DNA of 64,000 nucleotides from Euborellia annulipes (Eukaryota > Arthropoda > Insecta > Dermaptera > Anisolabididae), in assembly GCA_023213315.1 (NCBI GenBank), contig JAKCPI010016767.1, positions 1 through 64,000 on the forward strand, in the 5' to 3' direction. Below the pieces are notes generated by a model. That model saw nothing but the letters and a program-made list of their open reading frames with translations, was not told the DNA's origin and did not search any database. How positions within the stretch are numbered: position 1 is the stretch's first letter; every line of letters begins with the position of its first letter. Both the position numbers and the translations under genes were made by a program. Below, in pieces: positions 3,973 to 52,153 of this stretch.

Positions 3973-4056
3973 ACTTTAATTAATTAATTGTTCTCTTTTG
4001 TTTCAGGTAAGCATCTGATACTTATACAAAAAAATACAACTTTATAATCTGTAAGT
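3973..4056 (+). other. Candidate recursive splice site 1 (zero-length exon) with RS-exon
   Basis: A pyrimidine-rich tract ends in TTTTGTTTCAG (AG at 4005-4006) and is followed at once by the 5' splice site GTAAGCATC (from 4007). A plausible branch A lies at 3979, 27 nt upstream of the junction. A second, consensus 5' splice site GTAAGT begins at 4051, which would define a 44-nt RS-exon (4007-4050). This 3'ss-5'ss fusion plus downstream donor is the known architecture of recursive splice sites in fly and vertebrate long introns. Sites at 25783 and 52115 share the core but not the flanks. An ordinary 44-nt cassette exon is the alternative. Confidence 0.75.
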
Positions 4057-4770
4057 AAAAATAATTTCTATGGTTTTATTTATTTATTTATTTTTTTACT
4101 CATTTAATATTCAATTTTTTTTTTTTTAATGATTTATACCTACAAAACCAGTTTTATATGATTTAACCAAGTTTAAATTAACTGAAATAACATAGAGAGA
4201 GAGTTCTCATTTAAATTAACGAAATCGCTTTTATAATATTAAATGAATAATAGCAGATTTTTTTGTTTTATTTCCCTTTTGTTGTCTCGGACACTTGAGC
4301 CCCCTTTACCAGAGAACCTATCATTAGCTATTCTTTTCTATTATTAAATAATAGGTAGGGGGAAAAAATGGAAAAGCTAAAAGAGGATTCAATTTAATTT
4401 TTGTAAATGTATACTTTCTATAATAACTGGCTCTCTTTTATTAAATCCCCATCCGTTGAAAATAAAATAAAAACTTTTTACCTTTCTATGAAATTCTTCT
4501 CCCCCTTGGACCCCTCTAAGTTGGGCAGACCCTCACCTTCCCTAATCATATGCTGCAATTGTTCACATATTACCTCGTTATAAATATACATTTCAGGCTT
4601 GTTACGAAATATTTCTTTTATCTTTAAAAAATAAAATTTGTATTATTTTAATAAATATCAAAGGCTAAACAAAAAATAAAATTTAATTATATAAGAATTT
4701 TTATTATTTTTTAATTTAGAGATTTAATTATTATAATTAATTGATTTTGATTTTTTATAAGGAAAAATAA
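4057..4770. other. Intronic AT-rich sequence
   Basis: No gene is recognised. A small family-R-like phrase (GGGCAGACCCTCACCTT) occurs near 4522. Confidence 0.4.
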
Positions 4771-5030
4771 TTAGCGTGCTAACCTCGTATACCAAAAGTC
4801 GCGGGTTCGGACCCCAGGCAGTCCGATGATTTTATTTAAGCCATTTGGATACCAAATGGCCTAAATAAGAACGCCTGGGCCCTTAATATGAATATTAATC
4901 TCTATAATGGATATCGTCAAAGTCTTAGATGGCCTAATTTGCCGAAAAGACTGTGTGTATGTGTGTGAGTGTGAATGAGAAAAAGTGTCAGTGTTAAAAA
5001 AAAAATAAAAAATAAAACACAATGCATTGC
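4771..5030 (+). mobile_element. tRNA-derived SINE, family S1 (5'-truncated)
   Basis: Contains the S1 signature: TTAGCGTGCTAACCTCGTAT, the Pol III B-box-like GGGTTCGGACCCC, GCAGTCCGATGATTTTATTT, and a tail CCGAAAAGACTGTGTGTATG ending in an A-rich run. The first bases of the tRNA-like head, present in other copies, are missing. Related copies lie at 37554, 41185, 45762 (minus), 46025 and 49430. Confidence 0.8.
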
Positions 5031-5042
5031 AATGTGAAAATT

Positions 5043-5078
5043 GCCCGCGGGCTTGGTGTATGGGTTAGCGTCCTGGCC
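5043..5078 (+). mobile_element. S1 SINE head fragment
   Basis: GCGGGCTTGGTGTATGGGTT followed by AGCGTCCTGGCC resembles the tRNA-like head of S1, including an A-box-like stretch. It breaks off before the B box. Confidence 0.5.
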
Positions 5079-5786
5079 TCAGTGAAATTTTTCGTGAAAA
5101 TCGTTTGAAATACACTTTATGCTAATTTCGGCACGGTTTAAACGCTTTGAGGACTTTTACCATTGCAATCTTATATTTTTGTGATTATTGAATGATCTGA
5201 GAGGCGAACCGTTCAGAATTTTAAGTTTGGTAAATACCACCCTAATAATTATACAAAATAAACTAGACATTTTGTCGCCAGACAAAATTCACCTCAAAAA
5301 TGATTATTTCCAAAACCACACCTATATAAAATGCTAATTCTAAAGATATATAAAACTTTTGAGTGGAAGAATTTGAGGTAATAAATAGAAAAATAAAAGG
5401 TTAATAATTCATAAATAATAATAGGCCAATGTTAATCTTATGACCCAACTGTGAGTGCTCTCTTTCATTAAAAGGCAAACTCTAGAAAATGGTCGTAAAA
5501 GCAGTAATTGAATATGCAGCACCTGCCATGCTCTCTCCCTACACACCTCCCTATACCATCACAACCGAGAACTTTAAGTGAATAGTAGGCCTAGTAGTAT
5601 AATAAAAAGAAAAAAAAAGAAAAAATGTTATTAATTGCATTAAATATGGAAACGAATGAAATATTTTTTTTTTACTTTTTTGAAGAATTTTAAAGTTTAA
5701 AAGAGTAAACTTATTAATTAGACAAATACTAGCCGGAGCGCCTGCCTTCGGCCTCCAAATGACTCCTGCTGTTCTCGCCATCTTAA

Positions 5787-6207
5787 AGCGGCTATCCACG
5801 TAACTGCGCACTTGACAAGCATGCATGTGCAATCTTTTTGTACCAGTATGCATAAATTCCTCATGGAACAAGCATACTTGTGCAAGGAACAGTTTATGCC
5901 AAAAATTAACCTAAAAAATGTCATACTCAGAAGGTTATTTATTTGAAGAAATACTTGCTTTAAACAGAGACACAATAAATATTAATATTTAAATTGGATT
6001 TTTAAATGAATTAATATGTATTAAATAAATATCAAATATCAAGACGTCTATAAAATTGCTGAGAGTTTTGCTTGCTCAAATATGCTTGTGCATGATTAAA
6101 ATTCAATCGATCATCAAGCGGCTTGCACAATTAAAATGCTTGAGCAAAACAGTTTGCTTGTAGAAAAAGATTGCACGTGCTTGCTTATCAAGTTTGAAGT
6201 TATATCC
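5787..6207. mobile_element. TIR element, family P (copy 1)
   Basis: The left end holds CACTTGACAAGCATGCATGT and GCAATCTTTTTGTA; the right end holds the inverted counterpart (AGATTGCACGTGCTTGCTTA, TCAAGTTTGAA). The second copy at 52524-52964 has the same ends and a similar interior. No transposase is present. Superfamily not identified. Confidence 0.65.
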
Positions 6208-6365
6208 AAAAAACACACAGAAACAAACATTTAACGTTGTATAGGCCTAAATACAACACAGATTTTTCTATGATAAAAGAAAAAAAATTTAATTTACAAT
6301 TTTTATAAATTTTCATTTTAGAGATTTTATTATTACAATGAATTGACTTAATTTTTCAAAAGAGA

Positions 6366-6500
6366 CGATGCTTTTCAATGGGGAAATCTTCAACAAATAT
6401 TTTGGGGACTCGTCTACTTTCTTTAACATCCTCTATAAGGGTTCAAAAACTCATTTCGACGGGAAGTTGTTCAAACAGAGAATGACAGTGTTTATGCATT
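6366..6500 (+). repeat. Family R-like relic
   Basis: Shares 'acatcctctataag' and 'cgacgggaagttgttcaaacagag' with family R copies near 47050 and 55070. It lies directly upstream of a hammerhead-like motif. Confidence 0.4.
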
Positions 6501-6537
6501 TACGAAAAACATTTATATTCACTAAATTTCACGTTAT

Positions 6538-6577
6538 AGCTCTGATGATGGTTCAAACGAGAACCGAAACGTCAGCT
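6538..6577 (+). ncRNA. Minimal hammerhead-ribozyme motif (a)
   Basis: Box CTGATGA (6542-6548), stem II GGTTC/GAACC (6550-6554 with 6561-6565), box GAAA (6566-6569), then CGTC with cleavage expected after C6573. Stem I can form from AGCT (6538-6541) with AGCT (6574-6577). Stem III is only the palindrome ACGT, as in the dimer-cleaving hammerhead variants known from Penelope-like elements. All core bases are intact. Confidence 0.7.
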
Positions 6578-6814
6578 TTTGATTAATTTTTTTTATTAGG
6601 CTAATTTAATGAATTTAGATGTCTTTCTGCGGGAATATTTATTTTGGAATTAATCATCCTCAAATTTTATTAAAATCTCATATGGGCAAGAAAAAATAAA
6701 TTTATCTGACTCTACAGAATCCAGTGCCTCTACTATTTAAAAAACAAAACTCTTCTTTGAAATTAGGCCTAAGAAATTTTTTAAATGAATTTTTCTTCTC
6801 AAAAATATAAAAAT

Positions 6815-7276
6815 TTACTCTTTTTAAACTTTTATTTGATCCTCTCAAATTTTTTCGCTCTTCTATCAGCATGTCGCGTTACAAGCCGTGACGTCAAAGG
6901 CCGTGACGCTACAAGCCACGACCTCACAAGCCGTGACGACAAAATTCGGAAAGTTGAAATTTAATATATATGATGAAAATAATTATGAATATAAAAAAAA
7001 ATAATTGTGAGATTTAATTATTCAATTTTTAAATTGATAAAATATAATTTTTAAAATAATTTAAAATGATTCAAACCTTCAATTACTAAATATATATTGT
7101 TCTCAGTTTTTAGCATGCGTCTATTGATTTCCCATTTTCCAATTATTATGTTAAGATTATAAACCCGATTTTAATTCCCTTAATTGAATAATTTTCTGAA
7201 AATTTTCAGTTAAACGCCTACGATCCGAAAAAAAAAGTTTCACTTGCATCGTGGTTTCATAAAACCACACAATGAT
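6815..7276 (+). mobile_element. Non-autonomous element, family D (copy 1)
   Basis: Begins near TTTTATTTGATCCTCTCAAA, then a short tandem 'acaagccgtgacgtcaaaggc', a central AT-rich part and an end with CCTACGATCCGAAAAAAAAA and CTTGCATCGTGG. Copies lie at 10383 (minus), 29691 (plus) and 42846 (minus). The CRE-like TGACGTCA lies at 6889-6896. No transposase. Confidence 0.65.
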
Positions 7277-7329
7277 TTATTTAATATAGTATTTAATAAC
7301 CAATGAAGTACGTGGCTGTTGATTTATAT

Positions 7330-7475
7330 AGTTTACAAGGAAAGGAGCAGGAGCAGCTAAAAATTAAAGCCTCCGATTTTTGACAATTTTCCCGAAACGT
7401 CTCGTTAATTGTCAAAAATCGGAGGCTTTAATTTTTGCCTACTTCTGCTCCCTTTAATAATTTTGTAAATAAATG
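7330..7475. repeat. Palindrome with hammerhead half-motif in its loop
   Basis: Arms carrying AAAGCCTCCGATTTTTGACA and its reverse complement (about 7350-7390 and 7407-7449) flank a short loop with CCCGAAACGTCTCG; GAAACGTC is at 7394-7401. The 3' half of the hammerhead core is present but no CTGANGA box. It looks like two head-to-head copies of a hammerhead-bearing retroelement tail. Confidence 0.65.
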
Positions 7476-8392
7476 AAAAAAGGCTTAATAGCGAAAGGTT
7501 GAATATTTGAATCCTTTCTGAAAAAAAAAAAACATGACGAAAAAGAAAATGCGCGCTTTTTATAATTTCTTTCTTTCCAAATTATTCAAAAAAAATAAAA
7601 TAATTTTCAAATTAGTACTAAATGAAAAGAGATTTGCCCCTTCTGGTTTAGAACGCCCGTTCTTAATTGAGATTTTTTTCAATGGTTTATTCTCTCTCTC
7701 TCTATTTTTTTCCTTTCTCTCTCTCAATTCACAAAATCACCATCATCGTTATCCTTATCCTTTAAAAATGGAAAGCTCATTTTTTTTTCCTTTTCTTTCC
7801 TTTGAGGGTTGTTATTCCGCTTTTTATCCCAGAGAGAAATATCGAAGGGTATTATTTTTATTAAAATAAAATGAGTGGCTAATCAGGATGCGATGTAAAG
7901 GTAATAAAATAACCAAGACTTGCCCCTGGACCACCAGAGTGTGTATTAATATCATTAAAAATTTTAAGGACAAAAAAAGAGGATTAATCTACGAAAAGGA
8001 AATTAATTTATCACAAATATTAAAACTAAGTTGCAGGTTTTTAAGTTGCTTACGAAGCATTAGAACCTGACAGGATAGCAAAACTTGAAACACCGGGTAT
8101 TTGTGTTTTACTAAGTGGGCGCATTAATTATTTATTCACTTTCCTTGTACTTTTTGAAACAAGTGATATTATTATTATATTGGCCTTCATCAATCGCCCA
8201 GGAATAAATAAAAGAAAGCTAAACACTAAATAAATTAAATAAAATTTTTTAATACAATTTTTTTTTTAGCTCTAGACTTATGTCAAAAACAGAAATTTAA
8301 TTTTTACAGGTGGATTGGGAGTCATTTTTTATTTTTTTGATTTTTTTTTTTTTTTTAATCTTTATAAAGATGGAAAATGAATTTAAAAATAT
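7476..8392. other. AT-rich non-coding sequence
   Basis: Contains CT-rich runs (7690-7730) and A/T homopolymers. The open frame at 7534-7869 is Phe/Ser/Lys-rich translation of these tracts and is not supported as a gene. Confidence 0.4.
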
Positions 8393-8531
8393 ACTGTAGA
8401 ACCTTGCTTAGCGAGCACCTCTCATAAGGAGTAATTCGCAAAACGAGCAAAACAATTTATAAAAGATTGCCTTACTTAACGAGCAACGTTTCGCATAACG
8501 AGCATAAAGAGGGAAAATCCCGGTACCACTC
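8393..8531 (+). mobile_element. Tigger/pogo-like terminus (relic)
   Basis: TACTGTAGAACCTTGCTTAG followed by CGAGCACCTCTCATAAGG resembles pogo/Tigger ends (CAGTAGAACCTCG..). 'Taacgagca' phrases recur. No right terminus was found; the 0.96-kb palindrome starts directly after. Confidence 0.35.
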
Positions 8532-9488
8532 ACAAGGAGAGTACACGGTTGACTCGTCACCGATTTTGATCTCCTTTTATATGGTGAATCTATACTGAAA
8601 AATATTTGTATCCTGATCGAACTTTTCGTCCAATGCGCCCTGTAACAATTTTTTTTTTTTCATCTGAAATTTTAAAATCTGAAAAGGATTGTTATAAGGC
8701 TCAAAGAAAAGCATATCAACAACAACAACTGATAGCGTAACGGGTAGAGGAGAGGATTAGTAATCCAGGGATCCCAAGTTCAAAACTTGGGTTGTCATTA
8801 TTTTTTTTTTTTTTTTAGAATTATTTATAGTATAAAAAATAAATATTATATTTATATTATAAAAATATTTTATTTATATTTGCGACATATTTATTACATA
8901 TTACATATTTATACAGAAAACAAATAATATTATACAATCAATTAGATATCTAAACTAACTAACTAAACTGACACTTCCTGTTGACAGCAAATGTATTGGC
9001 GAAATATTTCTTTTGATATTTCATAAAAAAAAACATTAATTTTCTATATCTTACTACCTTATTTTATATTTTAATTATTCATTTATATATCTAATTGATT
9101 GTATAATATTCATTGTTTTCTGTATAAATATGTAATAAATACGCAAATATAAATAAAATATTTTTATAATATAAATATAATATTTATTTTTTATACTATA
9201 AATAATTCTAAAAAAAAAAAAAATGACAACCCAAGTTTTGAACTTGGGATCCCTGGATTTCTAACCCTCTCCTCTACCCGTTACGCTATCAGTTGTTGTT
9301 GTTGATATGCTTTTCTTTGAGCCTTATAACAATCCTTTTCAGATTTTAAAATTTCAGATGAAAAAAAAAAATTGTTACAGGGCGCATTGGACGAAAAGTT
9401 CGATCAGGATACAAATATTTTTCAGTATAGATTCACCATATAAAAGGAGATCAAAATCGGTGACGAGTCAACCGTGTACTCTCCTTGT
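8532..9488. repeat. Large near-perfect palindrome (0.96 kb) carrying tRNA-like sequence
   Basis: Arms 8532-8953 and 9085-9488 are inverted copies with few differences, starting ACAAGGAGAGTACACGGTTG. The spacer is about 130 bp of AT-rich sequence. Each arm holds a tRNA-like stretch (8729-8798 and the inverted copy at about 9219-9290). No ORF fits a transposase. Probably a foldback transposon or an inverted SINE dimer. Confidence 0.8.
8729..8798 (+). repeat. tRNA-like sequence with A and B boxes
   Basis: TAGCGTAACGGGTAGAGG resembles a tRNA A-box region. CCAAGTTCAAAACTTGG forms a 5-bp T-arm stem with a B-box-like loop (GTTCAAAAC). A GGA/TCC stem with a seven-base loop could stand for the anticodon arm. 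Acceptor pairing is poor, so a tRNA-derived relic is more likely than a gene. An inverted copy sits in the other arm. Confidence 0.45.
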
Positions 9489-9504
9489 CAGTGTCATGGG
9501 AGGG

Positions 9505-9720
9505 AAAGCTCTATAGGGAAATTATTTCATTATTTTTGACACTAATTTCACCAACTTTGCATTCTTGTAGAGGATGTTATGGAGGATCCTGGAAAAATAG
9601 GCCTGTTCCCATATCCCTAAATAGTGAGGCTCAAAAAAAAACAAAATTTCCCCATAGGAAACCATTGGGTTCTATCGCTCCTTAGGAAAAATTATAGCTA
9701 ATTAATTTTAATAATTAAAT
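9505..9720 (-). repeat. Dispersed repeat relic (family R-related)
   Basis: 'tagaggatgttatggaggatcctgg' and 'aggctcaaaaaaaaacaaaatttcccca' recur at 16200-16330 and 29540-29690. No coding content. Confidence 0.4.
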
Positions 9721-9904
9721 CTCTTGTATGTAAAATAATAAAAAAATTTATATAATTAAATTTTCTTTTATTTTTTTTAATTGGATATTTATTAAATGTA
9801 TTAAATATTAAATGTATTAATAATTTTTAATCGAAATATTTTTTTAACAAAAACCTTAAATAATTTATTTTTTAAACGATATTGAGCAAAAACCCTAAAA
9901 TGGT

Positions 9905-10382
9905 TAGGGATGAAAGGATACCATTGACGTAACGATACTTTTACTCGATACAGTATGGGTAGGGATGTGGTATCGAAAAAAGTATAGATACTTGTACAGT
10001 GAGCGCCACAATTAAGTCCCCACCTGATAGCTTTAGCTTTAAGTATATGGTATAGTATATGGTGAAATAATTTGAAATTTGAAAAGGTAAAATAAAATCA
10101 GCTGTACCAGATTTTACTTTTTACCTTTTCGGTCATTAAAATTATTTCATTATACACCATATACTCTACAAGGCTCTAGCTATCAGGTGGGGACTTACTG
10201 GTGGCGCTCACTGTACTTGGTATCGTATCGAAAGTAAAGTATCGATACCAAAAAGTATCGAGTTAAAAAAAAAAAAAAAAAAAAAAACGTTCTAGTATCG
10301 ACATTTTTTTAGTGTTCCTATGTATGGGTCCCCAAGTATCGATACCAATTCGATTGAAAAATATCGATACTTATTAGTATCG
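9905..10382. mobile_element. hAT-like relic with GTATCGATAC repeats, split by a Tc1-type MITE
   Basis: Starts near TTAGGGATG and contains many copies of GTATCGATAC-like words, a pattern common in non-autonomous hAT elements. It is interrupted by the MITE at 9998-10213. Target duplication not resolved. Similar words occur at 42510-42620. Confidence 0.45.
9998..10213. mobile_element. Tc1/mariner-like MITE (216 bp)
   Basis: Terminal inverted repeats CAGTGAGCGCCAC..TTAAGTCCCCACCTG match between the ends, flanked by TA on both sides (9996-9997 and 10214-10215). The CAGTG-type TIR and TA duplication are typical of Tc1/mariner. It splits a hAT-like relic and so inserted later. Confidence 0.8.
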
Positions 10383-10695
10383 GAATTGGTAAATCAATAG
10401 ACGCATGTTAAAAACTGAGAACAATATTTATTTAGTATTTGAATCATTTTAAATTATTTTAAAAATTATATTTTATCAATTTAAAAATTGGATAATTAAA
10501 TCTCACAATTATTTTTTTATAATTCGTCATATATATTAAATTTCAAATTTCTTATTTTTGTCGTCACGGCTTGTTTGATCTGTGGCTTGTGACGTCATGG
10601 CTTGCAGCGTCAGGGCCTTTGACGTCGCGCCATGTAAAGCGACATGCTGATAGAGCAAAAAATTTGAGCCATTAAATAAAAGTTCCACTTTAAAA
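10383..10695 (-). mobile_element. Family D element (copy 2, truncated)
   Basis: Reverse-oriented copy of family D: AAATCAATAGACGCATGTTA, later CGTCACGGCTTG and TGACGTCATGGCTTG, ending near GTTCCACTTT. The end with CTACGATCCGAAA is missing. Confidence 0.6.
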
Positions 10696-11500
10696 AAAAA
10701 TTGAATCTTTTTGTAGATTTAAGGATAAAATCATCAGATTGGGAAGTGTCTAAGTTAGTGAATCTCGTAAATGGACACGCGTATTAGAAATAAATAATTT
10801 ATTATTATCTCTTCTTCTTCTTCTTCTATTGAATGATTTAAAAGAGTTTGACAATAAAAAATTTCAATTGGATTTTCAAGCAATTACAATTGGAAAACGA
10901 ATGAATTTAAAAGAATTCTGGCTTATTGCCAACGAAACGTTGTCTCAGATCGAACAGCTAGTCTTTCGAAATTGATTCGTGAAAAGTAGAATTTGATTTC
11001 GCAATACCCACACACACATAGAGAGATTGAGATGTGTGACAAGATAACAAGAAAAAAAAAAGGAGTGATGGACATCCTCACGGCTCCAATTATATCTGAC
11101 ATCAAGATAAATTAATGAAAAAGAATTTGAAATTCAATTCAGGTTTAACGTTACTTGATTTGTTATGTGAGTGAGCTAAAAAAGAAATAATCCGTCGGTT
11201 TTTAATTCATCATTATAAGAAGGATCGACAGATATTTCAACAATGCGAAGCTGATTAATCGAGGGGATTAAAGCAGCCAGCGAATATTCAAATGTTAATC
11301 GCATCGCCCTTTATTTCGCTGCAAATTTCAATAACTAAACTTTAAACTGGAATCCCTATTAATTAAGAGAGGCCCCAAGGGAATTAATTCGCTTATCTAT
11401 GGGCCTAATTCAAGTATTTTAGTAAACACTATTTTAAATTCTCTATTTAGATGAATTAAATATGCTGGGATGATTCAATAACGTTATTAGAGAATATTTA
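10696..11500. other. Unique, less repetitive intronic sequence
   Basis: Little repeat similarity to the rest of the window. Around 11245-11330 there are clustered GATTA/TAATC words (GCTGATTAATCGAGGGGATT) resembling K50-homeodomain sites. A cis-regulatory role is possible but only inferred. Confidence 0.3.
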
Positions 11501-12736
11501 TATTGGGATCTTTAGCATTTCAATACTCTATCTGGTGGCTTAAAGTCGAACTAGCGATTGTAGGATAAACCTTCATACGTTTAACGTGATATAAGGGACA
11601 AGAACATTTAAACATCTGATATAATTGTATTATTTAAAAAAAAGTTATAACCCACGAGTAAACATTATTGTTAGATTAATAAATAATACATACATACACT
11701 AATATATTCACAAATATGAAATTTTCTCCTTATAAAAATAAAAGCAATGTTATTGGGATCTATGGGAGAGGCGTGGCTTCACCTGGTGGCAAAAAATGAA
11801 CTAGCCATTGTAGGATTGAATGGCTGAGCTGATACGCAAGTACTCGTGTTTTATGAGAAAAAAGTTTAATTAAAAATAAAAAATGGGTGTGACGGTACAG
11901 GAAATTTGTAGGTTTTCTTCTGCCACACTTACTAATAGAAATTTTATTTGTGGAGACAATATTATTGATCCTGGTGATGTTTTAAAGGGAGTAATAGTAA
12001 TGACAGTTTCAATGACAGACCAAATTCTTGCTTTCTGTTTACAAACAACAAGTTTACGAGAAGAATTTCATGCAGTGGCGTCATTGGGGGGGGGGAGGCA
12101 TTTGCCCCCCCCAAGAGCTCTGATTTTTATAAAATTTTATATTATTCAAAATAAAATGCTCCAAAATACATCTAGGAGTATACAAACTGTACAAATTTTA
12201 TAATAATAATAACAAAAAATGTGTTTGGAGTGCACCACATAAATCAGCTCTTAAAAAAATACGATATGAGACGCCTTGGCTCGAGCACAATTGTTTTAGA
12301 GAAAAACAAGAAAAAGATAGAGGCAAAAATTAAAAAGAAGGTTTCTAAATCTGATAGATTGATTCTTCTACAATAAAATTATTTATAATTTTCACTATAG
12401 CTACTGTCTTTTTTTGGAAAAGAATGAAATCGAACTGTTTCATGCTTAGATGCATGACTTTTACACCCATAAACACAAAGTAGATACACATTGCTTTTAT
12501 TTTTATAAGGAGAAAATTTCATATTTGTGAATATATTAGTGTATGTATGTATTATTTATTAATCTAACAATAATGTTTACTCGTGGGTTATAACTTTTTT
12601 TAAATAATACAATTATATCAGATGTTTAAATGTTCTTGTCCCTTATATCACGTTAAACGTATGAAGGTTTATCCTACAATCGCTAGTTCGACTTTAAGCC
12701 ACCAGGTAGCGTATTGAAATGCTAAAGATCCCAATA
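11501..12736. mobile_element. Long-TIR element A, interlocked with element B
   Basis: The left arm (11501-11748) starts TATTGGGATCTTTAGCATTT and is matched in reverse at 12488-12736. Inside lie the left end of element B and segment C (12216-12487), whose inverted copy C' follows at 12735-13010. The order is A-B-C-A'-C'-B'. No transposase. Confidence 0.7.
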
Positions 12737-13626
12737 TCTACTTTGTGTTTATGGGTGTAAAAGTCATGCATCTAAGCATGAAACAGTTCGATTTCATTCT
12801 TTTCCAAAAAAAGTCAGTATAGTGAAAATTATAAATAATTTTATTGTAGAAGAATCAATCTATCAGATTTAGAAGCCTTCTTTTTAATTTTTGCCTCTAT
12901 CTTTTTCTTGTTTTTCACCAAAACAATTGTGCTCCAGCAAAGGAATCTGATATCGTATTTTTTTAAGAGCTGATTTATGTGGTGCACTCAAAACACATTT
13001 TTTGTCTGTACACGTGATATTTTTTAAATCTTCTAAATTATTTTTGTAAGTACAAAAAAAAATTATTAATTTTATATTTAATTACCGGTATTAATTTTTT
13101 AGTTAATTTATCATTTAATTATCTTGTATTTATTATTACAATAAAATATTTCAAACACTTTTTGGCTAACATCATATCAGATATCATAAATAGCGGTTAC
13201 AGAATAAAAGTACAGCCCCAAATGTGCTTGCAGGTACTTCCTAATCCAGCCTTATACGAGCATCCATCCCAATTGTTATTATTATTATAAAATTTGATCA
13301 TTTATTTCATGAAATTCTTCTCGTAAACTTGTTGTTTGTAAACAGAAAGCAAGAATTTGGTCTGTCATTGAAACTGTCATTACTATTACTCCTTTAAAAC
13401 ATCACCAGGATCAATAATATTGTCTCCACAAATAAAATTTCTATTAGTAAGTGTGGCGAAGAAAACCTACAAATTTCCTGTACCGTCACACCCATTTTTT
13501 ATTTTTAATTAAACTTTTTATCTCATAAAACACGAGTACTTGCGTATCAGCTCAGCCATTCAATCCTACAATGGCTAGTTCATTTTGCCACCAGGTGAAG
13601 CCACGCCTCTCCCATAGATCCCAATA
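11751..13626. mobile_element. Long-TIR element B, interlocked with element A
   Basis: Left arm (11751-12075) starting TATTGGGATCTATGGGAGAG is inverted at about 13312-13626. A and B share their first 11 bases and a similar stretch containing GAACTAGC.ATTGTAGGAT, so they are subfamilies of one element. The B arm carries a 106-codon open frame (11883-12203) whose inverted copy is frameshifted. Confidence 0.7.
12075..12195 (+). mobile_element. hAT-type fragment inside the left arm of element B
   Basis: CAGTGGCGTCATTGGGGG followed by a C-rich block interrupts sequence that is continuous in the inverted arm (near 13300). The CAGTGGCG start is hAT-like. The right end is unclear. Confidence 0.4.
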
Positions 13627-14085: not shown

Positions 14086-14100
14086 GTATATAGATTATAA

Positions 14101-14934: not shown

Positions 14935-14936
14935 TA

Positions 14937-15146: not shown

Positions 15147-15148
15147 TA

Positions 15149-25753: not shown

Positions 25754-25829
25754 CTAACTTTTTTTTATTTTTTTTGTTTCAGGTAAGCATCTTGGAATTC
25801 CATCTATTGCATCTCTCCTATATGTGAGT
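25754..25829 (+). other. Candidate recursive splice site 2 with RS-exon
   Basis: Branch-point consensus TTCTAAC with A at 25757, 25 nt before the junction; long T-rich tract; TTTTGTTTCAG ending at 25782 fused to GTAAGCATC (25783 onward). A downstream 5' splice site GTGAGTG begins at 25824, giving a 41-nt RS-exon (25783-25823). The RS-exon and its downstream flank show no match to sites 1 and 3 beyond the GTAAGCATC motif, which argues for selection rather than a shared repeat. Confidence 0.78.
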
Positions 25830-43172: not shown

Positions 43173-43758
43173 AAAAAAACTACTTTATAATGAATTTGAC
43201 TTAAATTTTAATTATATGATTAAAGTTGATTGCTTGATTTTATTTAATCACATAAACTCACAATTTATTTAGATTAATCGTAGTTTTTTTTTTTTTTTTT
43301 GTATTTCTCTTCTAAATAATAATAATAATAAATTATACGATACACACGAATTTAAAATCTCAATTTACATTGTTAAAGAGAACGAGGAGGGGATGCTAAT
43401 TAATTCGTTGGGATCATTAATTATTTAAATGAGTCCCCTCCACCACTCATTCGTTATTCCTTCATTCCTTTTTGGAGCAAGTGATCCTCATCATCCATGA
43501 GAATAAAAAGGAGAGAGAGAGAAAAAGAAAGAAAAAAGTTTATATAAATAAAATAAATCGAATCTGAAACAAACAAAGACTTAAGTTGGTTTTGGAATAT
43601 ATCGGAATAAGTTTCAGACTGTCTCTCTTTTATTTTTTTGAGAAGAGTCCCTAAGGATTTTAGAAATACTTGGAAAGAAATAGAGAAATTGAGAGAGAAG
43701 AAATTTAGTTAATTATTAAAATGTTGTCTAAATATTCCGAATGTTTTTGAATTTGACA
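43173..43758. other. Unique non-coding sequence
   Basis: Contains TAATTAATTCG and ATCATTAATTATTTAAATGA words near 43395-43430 and CTCC-rich patches. No gene recognised. Confidence 0.35.
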
Positions 43759-43762
43759 TTAA

Positions 43763-44147
43763 GGTGCGCGTCTCGGGGTGCTAATTTTGGGACTTTCCAG
43801 CTGCCACAATTTTGAAGCTATCGACTTCAAATTTTTTTTAAATTAAAGCTTTTTAAAATATCTACAAATAATAGAAGCCCTTTTTTTGATTTTCGAAAAA
43901 ATTTTTTTTTTTTTAGATTAATCGCATTAAATAAAAGATATTTTAAAAAAAGGAGCTCTATAAGTTGTAGATAATTATATTAGTAATCATTGTGTTAAAA
44001 AATAATTAATTTTTTGCCTTTAATTAATTAGCTGGAAAGTCTAGAATTAAATGGAACAAGTTACGTGTATTCCAATAGGGGAACACTAACGCCATCTCGT
44101 GCCGCCTCGAGTCAATCGTGCTTTAACGGTTTTTCGAGACGCGCACC
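43763..44147. mobile_element. piggyBac-like MITE (385 bp) in TTAA
   Basis: Inverted ends GGTGCGCGTCTCG and CGAGACGCGCACC are flanked on both sides by TTAA (43759-43762 and 44148-44151). TTAA duplication is the hallmark of piggyBac. No transposase. Confidence 0.8.
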
Positions 44148-44297
44148 TTAAATAAATGTGGAACTCTGATGCAAAACTGCCCTTATCCTAAAAAATTTCG
44201 AAATTCAGTTAGAAGTCGTGTCCTACTAATTCGGTGGCCGGGAATATGATTTTAAAATTATTTTATTTCCAAATTGTAGGCTTATATATACCATAAA

Positions 44298-44830
44298 AAA
44301 ATCTGGTGTGCCTGGTCGCACAGCACACAACTTTCTCTTACCTTCGGTAATCGAAAGTTGTGTTCTGTGCTTGTCACACCAGATTTTTTGTTTCGACATA
44401 TGTATACAGTAGAGTCCCGTTAATACGAACTAATTCGTTCGGATTATCGGGAAGTTCGGATTAACCGGAATTGTAAGCTTTAATTAGTAAATTTTGATAA
44501 TAAAGTCGTATTTATAAAGTTGTAAACCGTGAAACTTGTCGGTGATATTATACTCAAATTTTTTTACGTTTAATTAAGAGAAAAAGAAACTCATCAATTT
44601 GCGTGATGTGTGAACGCGGTTATTTAAAAAAAAAAAAAAAAAAAATCGTACCGCAAAAAGAACAGTTCGGATTACCGGGACATCGGGGACCTCTTAACTC
44701 TTTTCGTTCTTGAGATATTTTGTTCCCAGACAGACAGACCGACCATATCGCGAAAACCACTTTTTATGGATACAGGGGCCCTCAAAACGTGTATATCCAT
44801 CAAAATCTCAACATCGAATTTTTGACAAAT
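44298..44830 (-). mobile_element. Family E element split by a Tigger/pogo-like insertion
   Basis: Head hairpin at 44298-44390, tail words at 44697-44825 (CTCTTTTCGTTCTTGAGATA, CACAAAACGTG-type, CATCAAAATCTCAACATCGA). The middle is replaced by 44407-44694. Confidence 0.65.
44407..44694 (+). mobile_element. Tigger/pogo-like non-autonomous element
   Basis: Left end CAGTAGAGTCCCGTTAATAC follows TA; TTCGGATTATCGGGAAGTTC and GTTCGGATTACCGGGACATC recur. This matches pogo/Tigger-type termini (CAGTAGAGTCCCG..). The right terminus is degenerate. Confidence 0.5.
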
Positions 44831-44854
44831 AAAAAAAAAAAAAAAAAAAAAAAA

Positions 44855-44970
44855 ACAATGAAATAATCACAAGTAGAAAACGCATGGGTGGGACTTAATA
44901 TTGACCCTTACTGTACAAAAAGATTGCACATGCATGATTATCAAGTTTGAATTTCCGTGGGTAACCGCCT
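44855..44970 (+). mobile_element. Half MITE plus family P fragment
   Basis: 44855-44918 equals the right half of the MITE at 14937 (AAACGCATGGGTGGGACTTA). 44919-44970 (AAAAAGATTGCACATGCATG, GGGTAACCGCC) is a family P terminus. Confidence 0.6.
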
Positions 44971-45680
44971 TAATCAATAAAAATATTTTTCAATCAAAAC
45001 TGTTAATGAAGAAGTTTTCCAACTTTTTATTATTTATTCTATTACACATAATTTACTGAATTGCAAGTTGTCAGTGAGATGAATAACCAAAAGACGTTTG
45101 CCTTTTTTTTTTTTTTTTTTTTGTAATTTTTGCTGTTTATGAATTCCGTCTTGCACTGACTGTGTGATTTATTTCCTCCCTCCACTCTCTTTGTGGTCTC
45201 TCGTATATTCTCTCTCTCTCTTTGGAACTCTCCAGGGTGGCTTTATATATTATTTAAATGAAAAGCAAAGAAAATGGCGGGCAGAAAAGAGAGAGAGAGA
45301 GTTTAGAAAGCAGATAAGCCTGTTTGGAATCCAAGATGAACAACAACTATTAAACTTAAGAAAAAAAAAATAAAATAAAAACACTGAAGAAAAGTGGTGA
45401 AGAGGTTTTTTTTTTGGAATATTAAATTATTATAAATTTCTCGCCCTAATTTCTATTAATATACATGTATGCCCTAAGGCACAAAATACATGTAGGCCTA
45501 TATATAAAAACAATTGAAGATATGAGTGCAAGAGGCAGATAATAAACAAATGTAAACTTTTAAGAAAAACTCTTTACATTACTTTAAATTTGTATTTTGT
45601 AGATTATTTGATTATAATATGAAAGTATTAATGGATATGCATTTACAAATTGATTTTCAAGCTTATACCTTATCAAGAAA
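44971..45680. other. Non-coding with T and CT runs
   Basis: Nothing recognised beyond low complexity. Confidence 0.35.
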
Positions 45681-45761
45681 TATATAAAAACTAGCCGCTC
45701 CGCCCGCCTGCGGCGGACCCTCGCCTTTTCTTCATTATGAAAAGAAAATTATTTTTTTTTT

Positions 45762-45993
45762 TTTAAACACTCACACTTTTTTCTCATTCACTCTCACATA
45801 CACACAGTCTTTTCGGCAACTTAGGCCATTTAAGACTTTTACGATAACCTTTATTTAATAATATATATTTATTTGGGGTCCAGGCATTCTTATTTAAGCC
45901 ATTTGGTATAAAATCATCGGACTGCCTGGGGTCCGAACCCGCAACTTTTGGTATACGAGCTTAGCACGCTAACCTCTACGCCAAACCCCGAGG
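45762..45993 (-). mobile_element. tRNA-derived SINE S1 (nearly full length)
   Basis: Reverse copy from the A-rich tail (TTTTTAAACACTCACAC) to the head (CTAACCTCTACGCCAAACCC). Contains GGACTGCCTGGGGTCCGAAC, the B box in reverse. AGAAAATTATT flanks both sides as a target duplication. Confidence 0.85.
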
Positions 45994-46024
45994 GAAGAAA
46001 ATTATTATTACTATGTATTCCAAA

Positions 46025-46165
46025 TGCCCTCGGTGCTTGGTGTAGAGGTTAGCGTGCTAACCTCGTATACCAAACCTCGCGGGTTCGGACCCCAGGCAGT
46101 CCGATGATTTTATTTAAGCCAGTGTTACCTGTGAATGAGAAAAAAGTGTGAGTGTTTAAAAAAAA
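46025..46165 (+). mobile_element. tRNA-derived SINE S1 with internal deletion
   Basis: Intact head (GGTGTAGAGGTTAGCGTGCT and GGGTTCGGACCCC) joined early to the tail (GTGAATGAGAAAAAAGTGTG). Confidence 0.8.
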
Positions 46166-46862
46166 AAATCTGGTGTGACTGGCGCACAGCACACAACTTT
46201 CTCTTACCTTCGGTAATCGAAAGTTGTGTACTGTGCTTGTCTCACCAGATTTTTTGTGTCGACATGTATTTAGTTTCCGACAGTACGGTACATTCGATTT
46301 TCAAGATGTAAAATTTATAAGTATGGCGAAATATTTATATGTTGTTACCATGGCAACCATTTCTCCTATCTTTTCTATGTAGTACAAGAGTAAAGTGGTC
46401 TTCAGAAGATTTCAATCACAAAATAAGAATATACATTTTAAAGAGCATCTAAAAAATAATTGATTTTTGAATTTTAAAAAAAATCGTTGGAGCGAATTTT
46501 GAGAAAATCGAAAAAAAATGAAAAAGTGCATCAGTAAAGTACTAGTACTCTTTGGCCGATTTTGTTCAAAAGCTTCGTGTCACGTCCCATGGGGGTGTCT
46601 AACTTAAATATAAAATTTCAACCTCCTAGCTCTTTTCGTTCTTGAGATATTTTGTTCACAGACACACACACACACACACAGACACACGGACACACAGACA
46701 CACAGACACACAGACAGACCATGTCGCGAAAACCACTTTTTTGGATTCAGGGGACCTCAAAACGTGAAGATCCATCAAAATCTCGACATCGAATTTTTGA
46801 CATGAATCCAATACTTTCTCTCTATATATATATTACATATATACATAGGTAAGAGAAAGTAA
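46166..46862 (-). mobile_element. Family E element, full length
   Basis: Read along the plus strand: head hairpin (46168-46255) with ATCTGGTGTGACTGGCGCAC / TGTCTCACCAGAT, CATGTATTTAGTTTCCGACA, GTTACCATGGCAAC, AAAGTACTAGTACTCTTTGG, a CA/CACAGA microsatellite (46663-46718), ACCATGTCGCGAAAACCAC, and a closing hairpin (TACTTTCTCTCTATATATA / GGTAAGAGAAAGTA). No protein-coding frame is conserved between copies, so it is non-autonomous. Class unknown. Confidence 0.75.
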
Positions 46863-47205
46863 AAATGTATTCCAATCCAGTGATTGCTTGAAGATTTGTT
46901 TACATTCAAAGAATACACCACTGCAAAGAATACTTAAATATTTCTCTATACATTTCCTATGAGAGAAATCGTCAATTTAGGAATTAATAACTCAAAAAGT
47001 TTTAGGAATTTCGGGACCCGAGTAATTTTCCGGGACTCTCCATAACGTCCTCTATAAGACTGCAAAATTTCGTTTCAAAATTCCAACGGGAAGTTGGTCG
47101 AACAGAGCGTGACAGACGGACAAACCGACACTCCGCTATTATTATATATAGAAGAGAGAAATATGTGTTGGAATTAACTATTACTTGCACTCAGTTAAAC
47201 AAAAA

Positions 47206-47297
47206 ATCTGGTGTGACAAGCACAGTACACAACTCTCTCTTGCCGAAAGGGTAAGAGAAAGTTGTGTACTGTGCGCCAGTCACACCAGATTTTTTAA
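47206..47297. repeat. Solo family E head hairpin
   Basis: AAAAAATCTGGTGTGACAAG pairs with CAGTCACACCAGATTTTTT around a short centre. No other E sequence is attached, so the hairpin exists on its own here. Confidence 0.75.
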
Positions 47298-48060
47298 AAG
47301 TACTTACAGTATCTTCACTGACCGATAGAGGACAGAAGTGGTTACATGTTTATGTAAAAAAACTCAATTTCACCAAAAGTGGTCATTTACCTAACTCTTG
47401 CACATATCTTCATTTAATACCAACAAAATGATAATACAAAACAAATTGGATTCATTCATACAAACATTATTTTTTGTAAAATGTGTATTTGGTTTTTACA
47501 CATTGTTTCTTTTGTCTTAAATTGATAGCAGGCTATCATCATCATCAATCGCCTCCGGGCTAAGGAAATTTTGTATGCACTAGTTAGCAATCCATCATCA
47601 TGGTTTTCCTTTGATCAAGCAAAAGACCTTGAACCTCACAAGGCGAGTCTCCATTTATATGTTAATTAAGCGATTTAATAAATTACTCTCCTTAATAATA
47701 ACTCTAAGAGGATAACTTATTTCCTACTTGCCCTCTGAGAAGTCATTTTTTCTTCTTAGCTTTAATCTTTAAAGAAAAAAAAAAAATTTTCAAAGAAACA
47801 AGTGCCTGTTATACCTTTCAAGTTTTTTTTTTTTGTTCGTTCGTTGTTATTAATCTTACTATTATTATTTCAAATAGATATAAAAAAAAAGCTATTTGAT
47901 ATACCAACAGGTGAATTAAAGCTATTGAACTTTCTTTCTTTATCTATTAATGTCCGTCTATAATCTTATTATCTAATAAAAATTCTGGTGTGACTTGTCG
48001 TACAGCAAAATAACAAATTTCTCAAGAATGAGAAGAGCTATGCGGTTGACATTTTATATT
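47298..48060. other. Unique non-coding sequence
   Basis: CATCATCATCAATCGCC-type words near 47537; a small E-like start (ATTCTGGTGTGACTTGTCG) near 47983. No gene recognised. Confidence 0.35.
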
Positions 48061-48071
48061 TAACTTATGTA

Positions 48072-48614
48072 CAGTGGGCGCCACAAGTGACTGATCTGCT
48101 CGTTGGTGGAGCTTTGAGCTTAGGCAACCAAAATGCTTAGTATTAAGGTTATGGAGAAGAAAAAACCAGCGAATGCTTTGCACGTTAAAACAATTTATTT
48201 GCAGATATTTCGATATACCCAACGCAAACCATCCTCAGTGATCAAATTATATGATTGTGGAGCGTTTTATAAACTCATAAAATGCTTGAGAAGCCATTCT
48301 ATATATGAATGGGACAACATCTGATGAAGCAAGTCACTGAGAGAAAAATAGTATCTATATACATATGACACAATTGTATTTTTGTATGCTTTAAGACAAT
48401 TTCTCAGAGTGACCCGCCAAGCGCGTGTACTTTCTAATACTTCGATTACTTCAAAATGCTTAGTTTTCAGCAGTGTTAGCTTAAATATAGCTTTTGCCCT
48501 TTAGTTGCATTAAAAAAAGATGATTTATTTTTTTTTTTTTTAATATTAATTTGGTTAACTAAGCTCAAGGCTCACCTCTCGGGCAGATCAGGCACTTGTG
48601 GCTGGACCCCACTG
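48072..48614. mobile_element. Tc1/mariner-like TIR element carrying a hammerhead
   Basis: Left CAGTGGGCGCCACAAGTGAC and right CAAGTGCCTGATCTGCCCG (read in reverse) form about 60-bp inverted ends, flanked by TA. The interior has a minus-strand hammerhead-like motif (q). No transposase frame. Confidence 0.7.
48196..48245 (-). ncRNA. Hammerhead-like motif (q)
   Basis: Minus strand: CTGAGGA (48232-48238), then GAAATATC (48204-48211) with a palindromic ATAT stem III and cleavage expected after C. Stem II is poor. TGCAAATAAATTG follows as the tail. Confidence 0.5.
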
Positions 48615-48739
48615 TACCCTCTTGATAGTAGGCAAAATTCACTTTTTAATAAAATCAGCCAAAGAGTAATATTTTTTTTTAAAGTTTTTTCAGCATCTTA
48701 GCTACATAGAGCTTAAACAATACAAATTATTGCCAAACG

Positions 48740-48885
48740 ATATATATTAGGATGTCCAGGCACATTTATTTATACCAAATGATTTAAATAAATTAATCGG
48801 ACTGCTTGGGATCAGGGGGGGGGGGGGGGGGGGGGGAAAAAAAAAAAAAGGGGGGGGGCGAACCCGCGCCCCGTGCTTTCCACTC
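48740..48885 (-). mobile_element. Degenerate S1 SINE with a G/A homopolymer block
   Basis: GGATGTCCAGGCACATTTAT and AATCGGACTGCTTGGGATC are S1 on the minus strand. Then a run of about 24 G, 14 A and 8 G (48815-48858) replaces the expected few bases before CGAACCCGCG. See findings. Confidence 0.55.
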
Positions 48886-49019
48886 TATAATTATTGACAT
48901 TTGTCAACAACTTTTGCCGTCTCGGCCACGGGGGGGGTTATCTTTTGATCAAAATTCCTTTTAACGATTTTGATTAAAATTCATAATTTATTAAGATATT
49001 TATTTTTAAAAAAAGTGCC

Positions 49020-49198
49020 CGGGAGCCGTGGCTCAGAGAGAAGACACCAGCCTCTTGCGCCGGAGTCCCGGGTTCGCTTCCCGTCCCAAGCGAGAAAAAA
49101 TTATTTCATTTGATTTGACTGCAAATCATTTGAAATAAATAGGGATGGGGTCTAAATGGCCATAGTTGTCGAAAAAGACCTTAAAAAAACAAACAAAC
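49020..49198 (+). mobile_element. tRNA-derived SINE, family S2
   Basis: Head GAGCCGTGGCTCAGAGAGAA (A-box region), GTCCCGGGTTCGCTTCC (B box), body CAAATCATTTGAAATAAATA, tail ending in ACAAACAAACAA. Flanked by AAAAAAGTGCC on both sides (target duplication ending 49019 and 49209). Different from S1 in body and tail. Confidence 0.88.
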
Positions 49199-49335
49199 AA
49201 AAAAGTGCCTCAATTTTTCAGTCAGAAAGTTTCAGGCTATTAATATTAAAAATACATATTCAATGAAGAAAGAAATGGCTGTGGTGATGATTGAAATAAG
49301 GAACACAATGAGCCACAACTTTTATATTATATCGT

Positions 49336-49389
49336 CGACGTTTCGGGAACGCGTCCTGAAGATAAGAGAGACGGGTTCCCGAAACGTCG
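49336..49389 (+). ncRNA. Hammerhead-like motif (g) within a palindrome
   Basis: CGACGTTTCGGGAAC (49336-49350) is inverted at 49375-49389, so a GAAACGTC core faces each way. CTGAAGA (49356-49362) lies before the plus-strand GAAACGTC (49381-49388). Stem II is not obvious, suggesting decay of an inverted pair. Confidence 0.5.
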
Positions 49390-49429
49390 AAAAATATTAA
49401 TACTTTTTTTTTATAATTTTATATTTGCA

Positions 49430-49545
49430 TGGCCCTCGGGGCTTGGTGTAGAGGTTAGCGTGCTAACCTCGTATACCAAACGTCGCGGGTTCGGACCCCA
49501 GGCAGTCCGTTGATTTTATTTAAGCCATTTGGATACCAATATAAA
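49430..49545 (+). mobile_element. tRNA-derived SINE S1, 3'-truncated
   Basis: Best preserved head: CTTGGTGTAGAGGTTAGCGT, TCGCGGGTTCGGACCCC, GCAGTCCGTTGATTTTATTT; ends after GCCATTTGGATACCAA. Confidence 0.82.
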
Positions 49546-49671
49546 GAAGATTTTGAACTTTGCTCATAATTTGTGTAATCTGGAGAAATCGGTGAATCAA
49601 TACCAATTTTTATTTTTTTATAATTATGACTCAATTTTTTGATTAGTACAAAATATTAGACAGTCACGTGA

Positions 49672-49735
49672 CCCAGTAGCTCAGAGAAAAGATTAGCTTC
49701 TCGTCCCTAGAGAGAGAAAATTTCGCTGATTATTG
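49672..49735 (+). repeat. tRNA-like SINE head relic
   Basis: GACCCAGTAGCTCAGAGAAA and GATTAGCTTCTCGTCCC resemble the 5' half of S2; no B box follows. Confidence 0.35.
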
Positions 49736-50799
49736 AATAAAAATATTAATAAAAGAATCAGAAGAAAACAAAAAAACAAGGTTCATAAATATTCAAAGAG
49801 TGAGGGGTGGGTATCATTCACTACCAATGGATTTCGGTCAGTATTTGGACTAATCAGACGCATCTCAAAACGAAATCTTCCACTTAAATTGTCGAATTTT
49901 TGTTATCAAAAGGTCTAGCTTTTTTGAATTTAGAATGCAGGTAACTAATGTACGTAATACATAACATTAGTCATGTTCCTTCCCCCATGCAAATTTATTT
50001 ATTGAAAACCCTCCTTATTTAAAGATTTATGAATTGATTATTATTTAAAAAGAATAGGGGTGGGGGAGGGGGGCTTGTGTAAAATATAATCCCTCAAGTT
50101 GAGTCATTATTTAAAGCTAAACCCTCAGGAGGTCTTTCCCTTACCTGTGACCCTTAAAAAAAAATAAAAGCTAAGGTCCCTTGGATCAAAACGACCAGCC
50201 GAACCGGAAACGAAAACAAATCATTCCACCGGTAGGGAGGAGAGAGAGAGAGAGAGATCCCTTGTACGACATCAGAGGGTCGGTCGCCTGCTTTGCATGT
50301 AACACGATATGACACCGGGGGAGGGGGAGGGAAAAGTAAAAACAAGTCCATTACACACGTGCAAGTGGTTAATCGACAGAATGAGGGGTGTACAAACCTC
50401 CCAACCTGGTTGTTAATAAATAAGCTTTGTCGCGTGCCGACCAGGGGAACCAACGCAATCGACAGTCACTATCGCTCACATTGGTGGGTGGGGGAGAAAA
50501 TTTTTTTGTTTTTAATTTATAGCTCTCGGGGGGTGGTTCACCCTTTAATAGTTTTATATCACAAATTCACTCGCTTTTGCAAATCACCTTTTATTTAAGT
50601 CTATAAATAAAACAAACGTATACCTGTTATTTTGTACAATTGTGGATATGGAGTGATAGCACATCACGTGACGTTCGAGAAAGTTGTATGCTGTGCGGTC
50701 ACTCACATCATTTTTAGAAATTCTTTGCAAACCACCATCGTATTAATTTGTATCACAACAAGCTTAGTGAACAATAAAAATATGGAATTTTAAAAAAAA
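49736..50799. other. Unique, GC-richer non-coding block
   Basis: 50150-50500 is richer in GC than the rest of the window and has no repeat matches here. It contains CACACGTGCAAGTGG (E-box plus NK2-like word), a (GA)n run (50239-50256) and G-rich runs. Overlapping open frames on both strands look like chance in a stop-poor region. Confidence 0.35.
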
Positions 50800-51055
50800 T
50801 TTTTTTTCTTTTTTCTCTTTATTATATTTAATAATAAAAAGGGGTTGGTTATCTTAAAAATCGGGCCGGGGGGTTGTTTGGGTTTGGGGGTCCAAAAAAA
50901 TGAGTTTACCAGGGGCTTTGTTTGTTGTGTGTGTGTTTTAAAAAATATTTCAAAAAAAAAGAATAGAATAAAATTTTTTTTTTTTTGCCCCCCCCCGGGA
51001 AAAAAAAAATTTTAATAAAAAACAAAAAAAATATATTTTTTTTTTTTTTTTTTAA
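50800..51055. other. Suspect low-quality consensus over a family E copy
   Basis: Homopolymer-dominated text, yet GGTCCAAAAAAATGAGTTT..GGGGCTTTGTTTGTTGTGTG still aligns with the E phrase ATCCAAAAAAGTGGTTTTCG..GGTCTGTCTGTGTGTG. It precedes the clean second half of an E copy. Confidence 0.5.
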
Positions 51056-51345
51056 TAAAAAAAATTTAAATGTATATTCTCATTTAGCCATTGAAATATT
51101 CTGAAGACCACTTTACTCTTGTACTTCATAGGAAAGATAGGAGAAATGGTTGTCATGGTAAAAAAATATAAATATTTTCCTATGTTTATCAATTTTATAT
51201 CTTGAATTCTAATATATCGGCGGAAACTAAATATATCTCGACACAAAAATATCTGGTGTGACAAGCACAGAACACAACTTTCTTTTACCAAAGATAAGAA
51301 AAAGTTGTGTGCTGTGCGATCAGTCACACCATATTTTTAAAATTT
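51056..51345 (+). mobile_element. Family E element, second half
   Basis: AAATGTATATTCTCATTTAG, GAAGACCACTTTACTCTTGT, ATATATCTCGACACAAAAA and the terminal hairpin GGTGTGACAAGCACAGAACA / GCGATCAGTCACACC. Confidence 0.75.
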
Positions 51346-52085
51346 AATTTTTATTGAATCACTTTCTTTGTAGGTGAAACAATTTAAGAAATAAATAAAT
51401 AAATAAAATAGTTGAATTTTGGAGGTTGTAAAAAAACGATTGTATTTTTGCCAATTTTATTTGAGCTTCAAGGCATTGAAGGCTCTTCTTCATCTAAGGT
51501 TTACCTCTAAAACATTGACTGTATATTGGAGTTAATGTTTTAGAGTGGTTAATGATGAATTTCTTTCCTAACCTATATATTTCATTGTAGGCATTGTCAA
51601 ATATCAATATATTTTCTACAATTTTTATTTTAATCCCCATTTAAGGATTTAGTGAATTTTCTAAGGAATTCTCTCTTCTCGTTTGGTTCTTCTCAAATTC
51701 CTTTCTCGATTTCATTTCATCAATTAATTAACGCCAGATGCTCTTACGACTGGCACCAGTAGCACCAGATCTCTCCCTCTCTCTGGTGTTGATTGATATT
51801 TTATTGGATGTGTCATCCTTCATCAGATTTTTTCGAAATTGATTCAAACAAACACCGAGAGTGTTGCGTGGGAATCTTAATAATTAAAACTATAAACTTA
51901 TAAAGAAATAAAAGTTATCTTTTAAAGAATTTATATCTTGTATTTTCTTCTACTAGTACGCACTGTACATTATATTACAAATGTGACAACAAATAAGAAT
52001 GGGATAAGGGGGCTATCTGGCCCGTAAATAAAAATAATAATATTCTGAAAAGAAGACTTTCAGCGATTTTAATTTGAAATTTTAT
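51346..52085. other. Unique intronic sequence upstream of splice site 3
   Basis: No repeat family recognised apart from a doubtful hammerhead-tail-like word on the minus strand near 51485. Contains TTAATTAACGCCAGATGC and a CTCTC-rich run near 51770. Confidence 0.35.
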
Positions 52086-52153
52086 TCTAATTTCGTTTTT
52101 TTATTTTGTTTCAGGTAAGCATCATGCCTGAATTCTTTTGCCTAATCGTAAGT
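52086..52153 (+). other. Candidate recursive splice site 3 with RS-exon
   Basis: TTCTAAT with a plausible branch A at 52090, 24 nt before the junction; pyrimidine tract; TTTTGTTTCAG ending at 52114 fused to GTAAGCATC. A consensus 5' splice site GTAAGTG begins at 52148, giving a 33-nt RS-exon (52115-52147). Surrounding sequence is unique. Same core as sites 1 and 2. Confidence 0.78.

Follow-up and report, generated by a model that had tools for sequence, protein, structure and literature searches.

Three predicted ratchet points of recursive splicing with an extended donor signature in a 64-kb stretch of DNA

The three acceptor-donor fusions of the window (the whole stretch of 64,000 nucleotides that was analysed) are most probably intronic ratchet points of the Drosophila kind within a giant intron that belongs to a gene on the plus strand, and on the basis of the letters this reading is given a probability of about 0.88. 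The motif occurs far above chance, keeps to a single strand, is not a repeat, recurs in 41 distinct places of the genome and is followed by the donor of a short exon on the sense strand at 31 of these 41 sites, and therefore ratchet points are the best explanation of the sites, as had been proposed in the sequence-only reading. What is new here is a longer ratchet signature, whose donor GTAAGCATC departs from the fly consensus GTAAGT. Recursive splicing, which is rarer in vertebrates, is a well-established process in Drosophila; the intronic ratchet points of Drosophila, with their cryptic RS-exons, were reportedly described in the work of Hatton in 1998, Burnette in 2005, Duff in 2015 and Joseph in 2018.

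At each of the three sites a 3' splice site and a 5' splice site adjoin directly at an AG|GT, and the same 20-mer TTTTGTTTCAG|GTAAGCATC is matched exactly on the plus strand at 3996..4015 (junction 4006/4007), 25772..25791 (junction 25782/25783) and 52104..52123 (junction 52114/52115), precisely where three plus-strand fusions had been placed before; the intervals between the sites are 21.8 kb and then 26.3 kb. When AGGT[AG][AT]G was listed on both strands, the junction AGs were located at 4005, 25781 and 52113, and the preceding 17 nt were 88% pyrimidine at all three sites versus at most 65% at the other matches on both strands. A looser fusion rule applied to both strands of the window returned the same three sites and none further, in agreement with the earlier statement that the minus strand carries no such fusion. 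The branch-like motif and the pyrimidine tract claimed ahead of the fusions were likewise found, the tract being interrupted by G at all three sites. The candidate branch motifs, each of them a motif match only, are the plus-strand CTAAC at 3959..3963 for site 1 (A 45 nt before the junction), CTAAC at 25754..25758 for site 2 (A 26 nt before) and CTAAT at 52087..52091 for site 3 (A 25 nt before), and site 1 also has TTGAC/TTAAT motifs 34, 28, 24, and 20 nt before the junction.

In the 903-Mb genome 58 exact copies of the 20-mer were found, which represent 41 distinct places, and the reversed-pattern control gave 0. Because the query was the window's own exact 20-mer, the letter invariance of the 58 copies is by construction, and the count covers exact matches to this 20-mer. 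On the contigs with several sites all sites lie on one strand in 4 of 4 cases (chance 1/32), at distances of 21.8 to 61.6 kb, and in contig C11106 the 7 kb midway between two exact sites (an interval of about 61.6 kb) contained no further ratchet-like site. The branch-like YTRAY is present within 40 nt of the junction at 32 of the 41 sites and absent at 9 by raw count.

The strongest evidence for the ratchet-point reading is the second donor behind each site. At site 1 a putative cryptic RS-exon of 44 nt (4007..4050) is followed by the donor GTAAGT at 4051..4056, which is identical in the allelic copy on contig C23442 (locus L061 compared with the window); at site 2 the putative RS-exon of 41 nt (25783..25823) ends at the donor GTGAGT at 25824..25829, and at site 3 the putative RS-exon of 33 nt (52115..52147) ends at GTAAGT at 52148..52153, all on the plus strand. 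Across the genome GTRAGT was found at +9..+80 on the sense strand of 31 of the 41 distinct sites and on the antisense strand of 3, while the control intervals gave 1 of 41 at -130..-60 and 0 of 41 at +80..+150, and distant same-strand 71-mers (200–2900 nt away) gave 30 of 2436. Such an excess on the sense strand is the ratchet-point and RS-exon anatomy of Drosophila, and the reading is therefore well supported. Ten of the 41 sites have no GTRAGT within 80 nt, and L036, L049, and L063 have only poor donors within this distance; the best downstream donor lies 31–64 nt from the junction, with a median of 45 over the 41 sites. Which of the two donors is the stronger depends on the letters counted ahead of it: according to a weight matrix that includes the CAG of the acceptor, the ratchet donor scores 8.67 bits and the RS-exon donors at most 8.15 at all 41 sites, but when the score is confined to letters inside the intron, GTAAGC falls slightly below GTAAGT, the RS-exon donor of 16 of the 41 sites.

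The sequence-only reading had reported neither the recurrence of the 20-mer across the genome nor the second donors, which start at 4051, 25824, and 52148.

An acceptor with a downstream donor at each window site would also suit expressed alternative microexons, that is, cassettes of 33–44 nt headed by GTAAGCATC and kept in mRNA instead of serving as zero-nucleotide stepping stones. In line with this, 20 of the 41 lengths genome-wide are divisible by 3 (binomial P 0.046, uncorrected), and by intron letters alone the tail donor GTAAGT is at least equal to the head donor in 16 of 41 cases. However, the lengths 44 and 41 (two of the three in the window) would shift the frame, RS-exon 1 is stopped in all three frames, the sequence behind the motif is unrelated among the 41 sites, and an ordinary microexon offers no reason for retaining a head donor of the GTAAG type, so that retained microexons are considered improbable.

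Far less probable still, despite the 58 exact copies, is that the 20-mer represents a piece of some repeat, such as a dispersed transposable element. The masked flanks (up to 280 nt) of the 41 distinct sites are unrelated in register outside the motif, with only 4 weak off-register blastn pairs among them, and the extra copies resemble local haplotype copies, with a similarity of about 93–98% across the longest match of each of 10 pairs examined and of about 98% for the C23442 copy. As the 41 places are distinct and their flanks are unrelated in register, the signature is not a repeat, which bears out the earlier claim that sequence outside the splice signals is unrelated; a high-copy repeat, which had been named as a finding that would refute the ratchet reading, was looked for and not found. 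A chance meeting of splice-like words is the least credible account although the window is rich in GTAAG and TTTCAG words, since a Markov-1 model with base steps derived from the window expects 4.5e-7 copies of the 20-mer per 64 kb and 0.0064 genome-wide versus 3 and 58 seen, a Markov-5 model trained on the window and the other loci analysed (the 20-mer sites themselves included) expects 0.43 genome-wide, and the second donor occurs mainly on the sense strand.

On the ratchet-point reading the whole window would lie inside a single giant intron, that of a gene on the plus strand. A Pfam scan of 10 of the 19 window ORFs of at least 100 aa gave no matches at E up to 1, so that no host-gene exon was identified among them, and Rfam gave none at the gathering score. 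The contig ends at 67,851, and the ends of the predicted intron would lie outside it. Beyond the window, the final 3.85 kb carry an ORF for a DDE_1 transposase, which is not a host exon, and no host-gene exon was identified there besides.

By analogy with the fly, U2AF and U2 would read the branch point, the tract, and the AG jointly with the donor 33–44 nt downstream, a recognition that would amount to exon definition of the cryptic RS-exon, and the upstream exon would then be joined to the ratchet site. The GTAAGCATC heading the RS-exon could thereafter be reused as a donor, by which the RS-exon would be removed along with the intron segment that follows it, and the cycle would be repeated after 21.8 kb and then after 26.3 kb. 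The juxtaposed sites, their strand, their non-repeat nature, their recurrence, and the downstream donors can be read directly in the DNA; transcription, splicing, the host gene, and this order of events are what we infer.

All three window sites have the donor GTAAGCATC, in which the core GTAAG is retained and +6 is C, unlike in gtaagt, and therefore they are regarded as a variant and not as the fly form. The terminal T of gtaagt is a preference of fly ratchet sites and lies outside their definition. Among the 41 neighbouring RS-exon donors +6 is T in 35 and the continuation CATC is found in 0, and the lineage appears to favour an extended ratchet signature with GTAAGCATC over GTAAGT. A tentative proposal, to which we assign somewhat less than even odds, is that ratchet points of this lineage have evolved a dedicated and near-fixed 20-nt TTTTGTTTCAG|GTAAGCATC which, unlike ordinary donors, is read by something beyond canonical U1/U2AF pairing; if true, ratchet points would form a class of splice sites in its own right, served by a dedicated reader. 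The CATC ending brings no gain in pairing with canonical U1. A compensating U1 variant was considered, as CAG|GUAAGCAUC would fully pair with a U1 5' end AUGCUUACCUG, and none was present in the 20 of 42 U1 matches that were read: their 5' ends were the canonical ATACTTACCTG in 17, ATGCTTACCTG in 0, and neither in 3 (L081, L083, and L086). The U1 matches number at least 42 (42 were scored among 9543 first-look candidates), at least 36 of them over the cut-off, and 20 of the 22 outside the set read have a score equal to that of a read one.

If the predicted function is borne out, recursive splicing is in wide use in this large and probably arthropod genome, and ratchet points can be mined from DNA alone, which is feasible because the signature combined with the RS-exon donor leaves very little background. 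The question is also raised of what sets ratchet donors apart from ordinary ones, and a CATC ending without benefit to canonical U1 pairing makes this discrimination testable.

Recursive splicing outside Drosophila has already been proposed: according to PMC2773006, the large introns are enriched in RP-sites on the gene strand in mosquito, bee, beetle, and sea urchin, in a count scored with the human consensus, with similar results from the fly, chicken, and zebrafish consensuses. Among the literature titles and abstract openings no ratchet points outside flies and vertebrates were found beyond that study, and a search for the letters GTAAGCATC gave only unrelated subjects, as judged by title. 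The RS-exon donors and the lineage-specific extended motif are features of the present sites that the available part of the invertebrate count in PMC2773006 does not describe. Vertebrate RS-exons, as described in PMC8605326 and PMC6110457, have the exon-definition mechanism that is proposed here, whereas large vertebrate introns show little RP enrichment (PMC2773006) and many sites with one signature occur here. There is a close likeness with the ratchet points of Drosophila, where the same AG|GT juxtaposition of acceptor and donor is accompanied by a cryptic RS-exon that is about 50 nt long (Joseph 2021, PMC8605326) and ends in a donor of its own, and several sites likewise lie tens of kb apart on one strand; unlike the fly consensus (y)nncag|gtaagt, as given in PMC2773006, the signature here extends over 20 nt and has the donor GTAAGCATC.

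An exact 20-mer in which the 3' splice site TTTTGTTTCAG directly abuts the 5' splice site GTAAGCATC is present on the plus strand of the window at 3996-4015 (site 1), 25772-25791 (site 2) and 52104-52123 (site 3), with spacings of 21,776 nt and 26,332 nt, respectively, and its copies lie where the sequence-only reading had placed three recursive splice sites (ratchet points). When all AGGT[AG][AT]G words of the window were listed on both strands, pyrimidines made up 88% of the preceding 17 nt at sites 1-3 and at most 65% at all other matches, many of which are repeat copies with GTAAGAGAAAGT; thus the claim that the minus strand holds no comparable fusion was also confirmed. A looser scan of 317,166 nt of read sequence (duplicate loci L001-L008 excluded) returned sites 1-3 and nothing further in the window, while outside it exact sites, including an allelic copy of site 1 (locus L066), and two GTGTG fusions on minus strands (loci L025 and L035) were found. 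A scan under another rule (295,625 nt) added one fusion, which is the downstream second donor of the L035 site itself. As to the AGGTAAG words outside ratchet sites, 8 of 19 belong to a dispersed inverted-repeat element (AAAAATCTGGTGTGAC ... GAAGGTAAGAGAAAGTTGTGTGCTGTGCG ... CACACCAGATTTTT) located at 54110, 56339, 57062 and 63245 on the plus strand and at 61476, 46209, 44343 and 25144 on the minus strand, and about an equal number to another repeat with GTAAGAGAAAGTA.

In the genome assembly (903,471,066 bases, 25,949 contigs) the 20-mer occurs 58 times (35 forward, 23 reverse; reversed-pattern control 0), three copies being the window's own. All copies were examined with their flanks and grouped by similarity into 40 groups, one of which was a lumped group split by hand, giving 41 distinct sites and 17 duplicates. 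Chance origin is rejected by the expected counts, which are 4.5e-7 per window and 0.0064 per genome under a Markov-1 model, and 0.43 per genome under a Markov-5 model whose training includes the sites themselves. Origin from a repeat was tested by motif-masked blastn among the flanks of the 41 sites (up to 280 nt), which gave four weak pairs, all off-register. Counts above expectation together with unrelated flanks indicate that neither chance nor a repeat accounts for the 20-mer, and the earlier statement that it is not a repeat stands. The duplicates appear haplotype-like: in the 10 pairs compared the longest match was about 93-98% identical, and contig C23442 is about 98% identical to window positions 1192-8656. 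Near-identical copies of one ratchet site were also observed on neighbouring contig numbers (C14276/C14277/C14278/C14280, the group covered by a longer comparison, and C15574/C15575/C15576), which are probably unmerged haplotypes or local duplicates.

A feature absent from the sequence-only reading is a donor-like GTAAGT or GTGAGT shortly 3' of most of the 58 sites, which lies 44, 41 and 33 nt past the junction at sites 1, 2 and 3, respectively. Of the 41 distinct sites, 31 have GTRAGT between +9 and +80 on the sense strand and 3 on the antisense strand, with one occurrence at -130..-60, none at +80..+150, and 30 in 2436 same-strand stretches 200-2900 nt away, to which the 301-base loci contribute few or none. 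Some of the 10 sites lacking GTRAGT carry weaker donors (GTGAGC, GTAAGC, GTCAGT), and loci L036, L049 and L063 have poor downstream donors only. The cryptic exon implied by the best-scoring donor (RS-exon) is 31-64 nt long (median 45); its length is divisible by three in 20 of 41 sites (binomial P 0.046, uncorrected), and some RS-exons are perhaps expressed. The second donor is identical in all 17 duplicate copies, which is weak evidence because changes among duplicates are few (exon interior 13/583, further downstream 8/437, upstream 43/1003 positions).

When the acceptor's CAG is included in a weight-matrix score, the ratchet donor comes out stronger than its second donor at every one of the 41 sites; judged by the letters of the intron only, GTAAGC ranks slightly below GTAAGT, the form of 16 of the 41 second donors. 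All three window donors read GTAAGCATC; the 58 copies were retrieved with a word containing it, and their invariance is no proof by itself. By our arithmetic from base composition, a free +6..+9 would read CATC at about 0.3% of sites. The 41 exact sites would then have to be drawn from over ten thousand ratchet points sharing the prefix. Since this number far exceeds the more than 500 of flies given in PMC8605326, CATC is very probably preferred in ratchet donors. The second donors have T at +6 in 35 of 41 cases and the CATC continuation in none.

C at +6 reduces base pairing with canonical U1. No compensating U1 variant was found among the 20 sequences read of at least 42 U1 matches, 17 of which have a canonical 5' end and 3 one that is neither canonical nor compensating. 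Two loci (L076 and L077 on contigs C14926 and C20931) form a U1-like subfamily with a canonical 5' end and letters altered at two places (GGGG to AAAA-type, CCC to ATT-type), which resemble both sides of one stem, and it may represent a compensated U1 variant.

The window's contig (C12804) is 67,851 bases long, and no known domain was found in the 10 of 19 window ORFs tested. Just past the window, on the minus strand at about 65403-67247 (1102-2946 of locus L065), lies an intact ORF for a 614 aa DDE_1/HTH_psq transposase of the Tigger/pogo kind. Its best relative (unnamed) is 78% identical, and among the 120 of 1536 matches listed the named relatives are mostly insects, including leafhopper, damselfly, firefly, stick insect and butterfly.

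As far as sequence can tell, the window sites are very probably ratchet points of an established type whose consensus is a variant worth following up, and the original interpretation is to this extent borne out, with Drosophila-type anatomy. PMC8605326 describes the Drosophila ratchet point as a tandem acceptor and donor concealing a cryptic exon of ~50 nt with its own donor, required for recognition and later discarded; PMC6110457 also considers the second donor as an indication of exon definition. Similarly, the window sites and most of the sites in the genome combine a fused acceptor-donor with a putative short exon and its second donor. According to PMC2773006, such sites are enriched on the gene strand in large introns of fly, mosquito, bee, beetle and sea urchin, with little such enrichment in those of vertebrates. 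In agreement with this gene-strand enrichment, exact sites lie on one strand in each multi-site contig (C3674, C9244 and C11106 with two each, C12804 with three; chance 1 in 32). The donors, in contrast, depart from the gtaagt of the fly consensus (y)nncag|gtaagt reported there, reading GTAAGCATC in the window.
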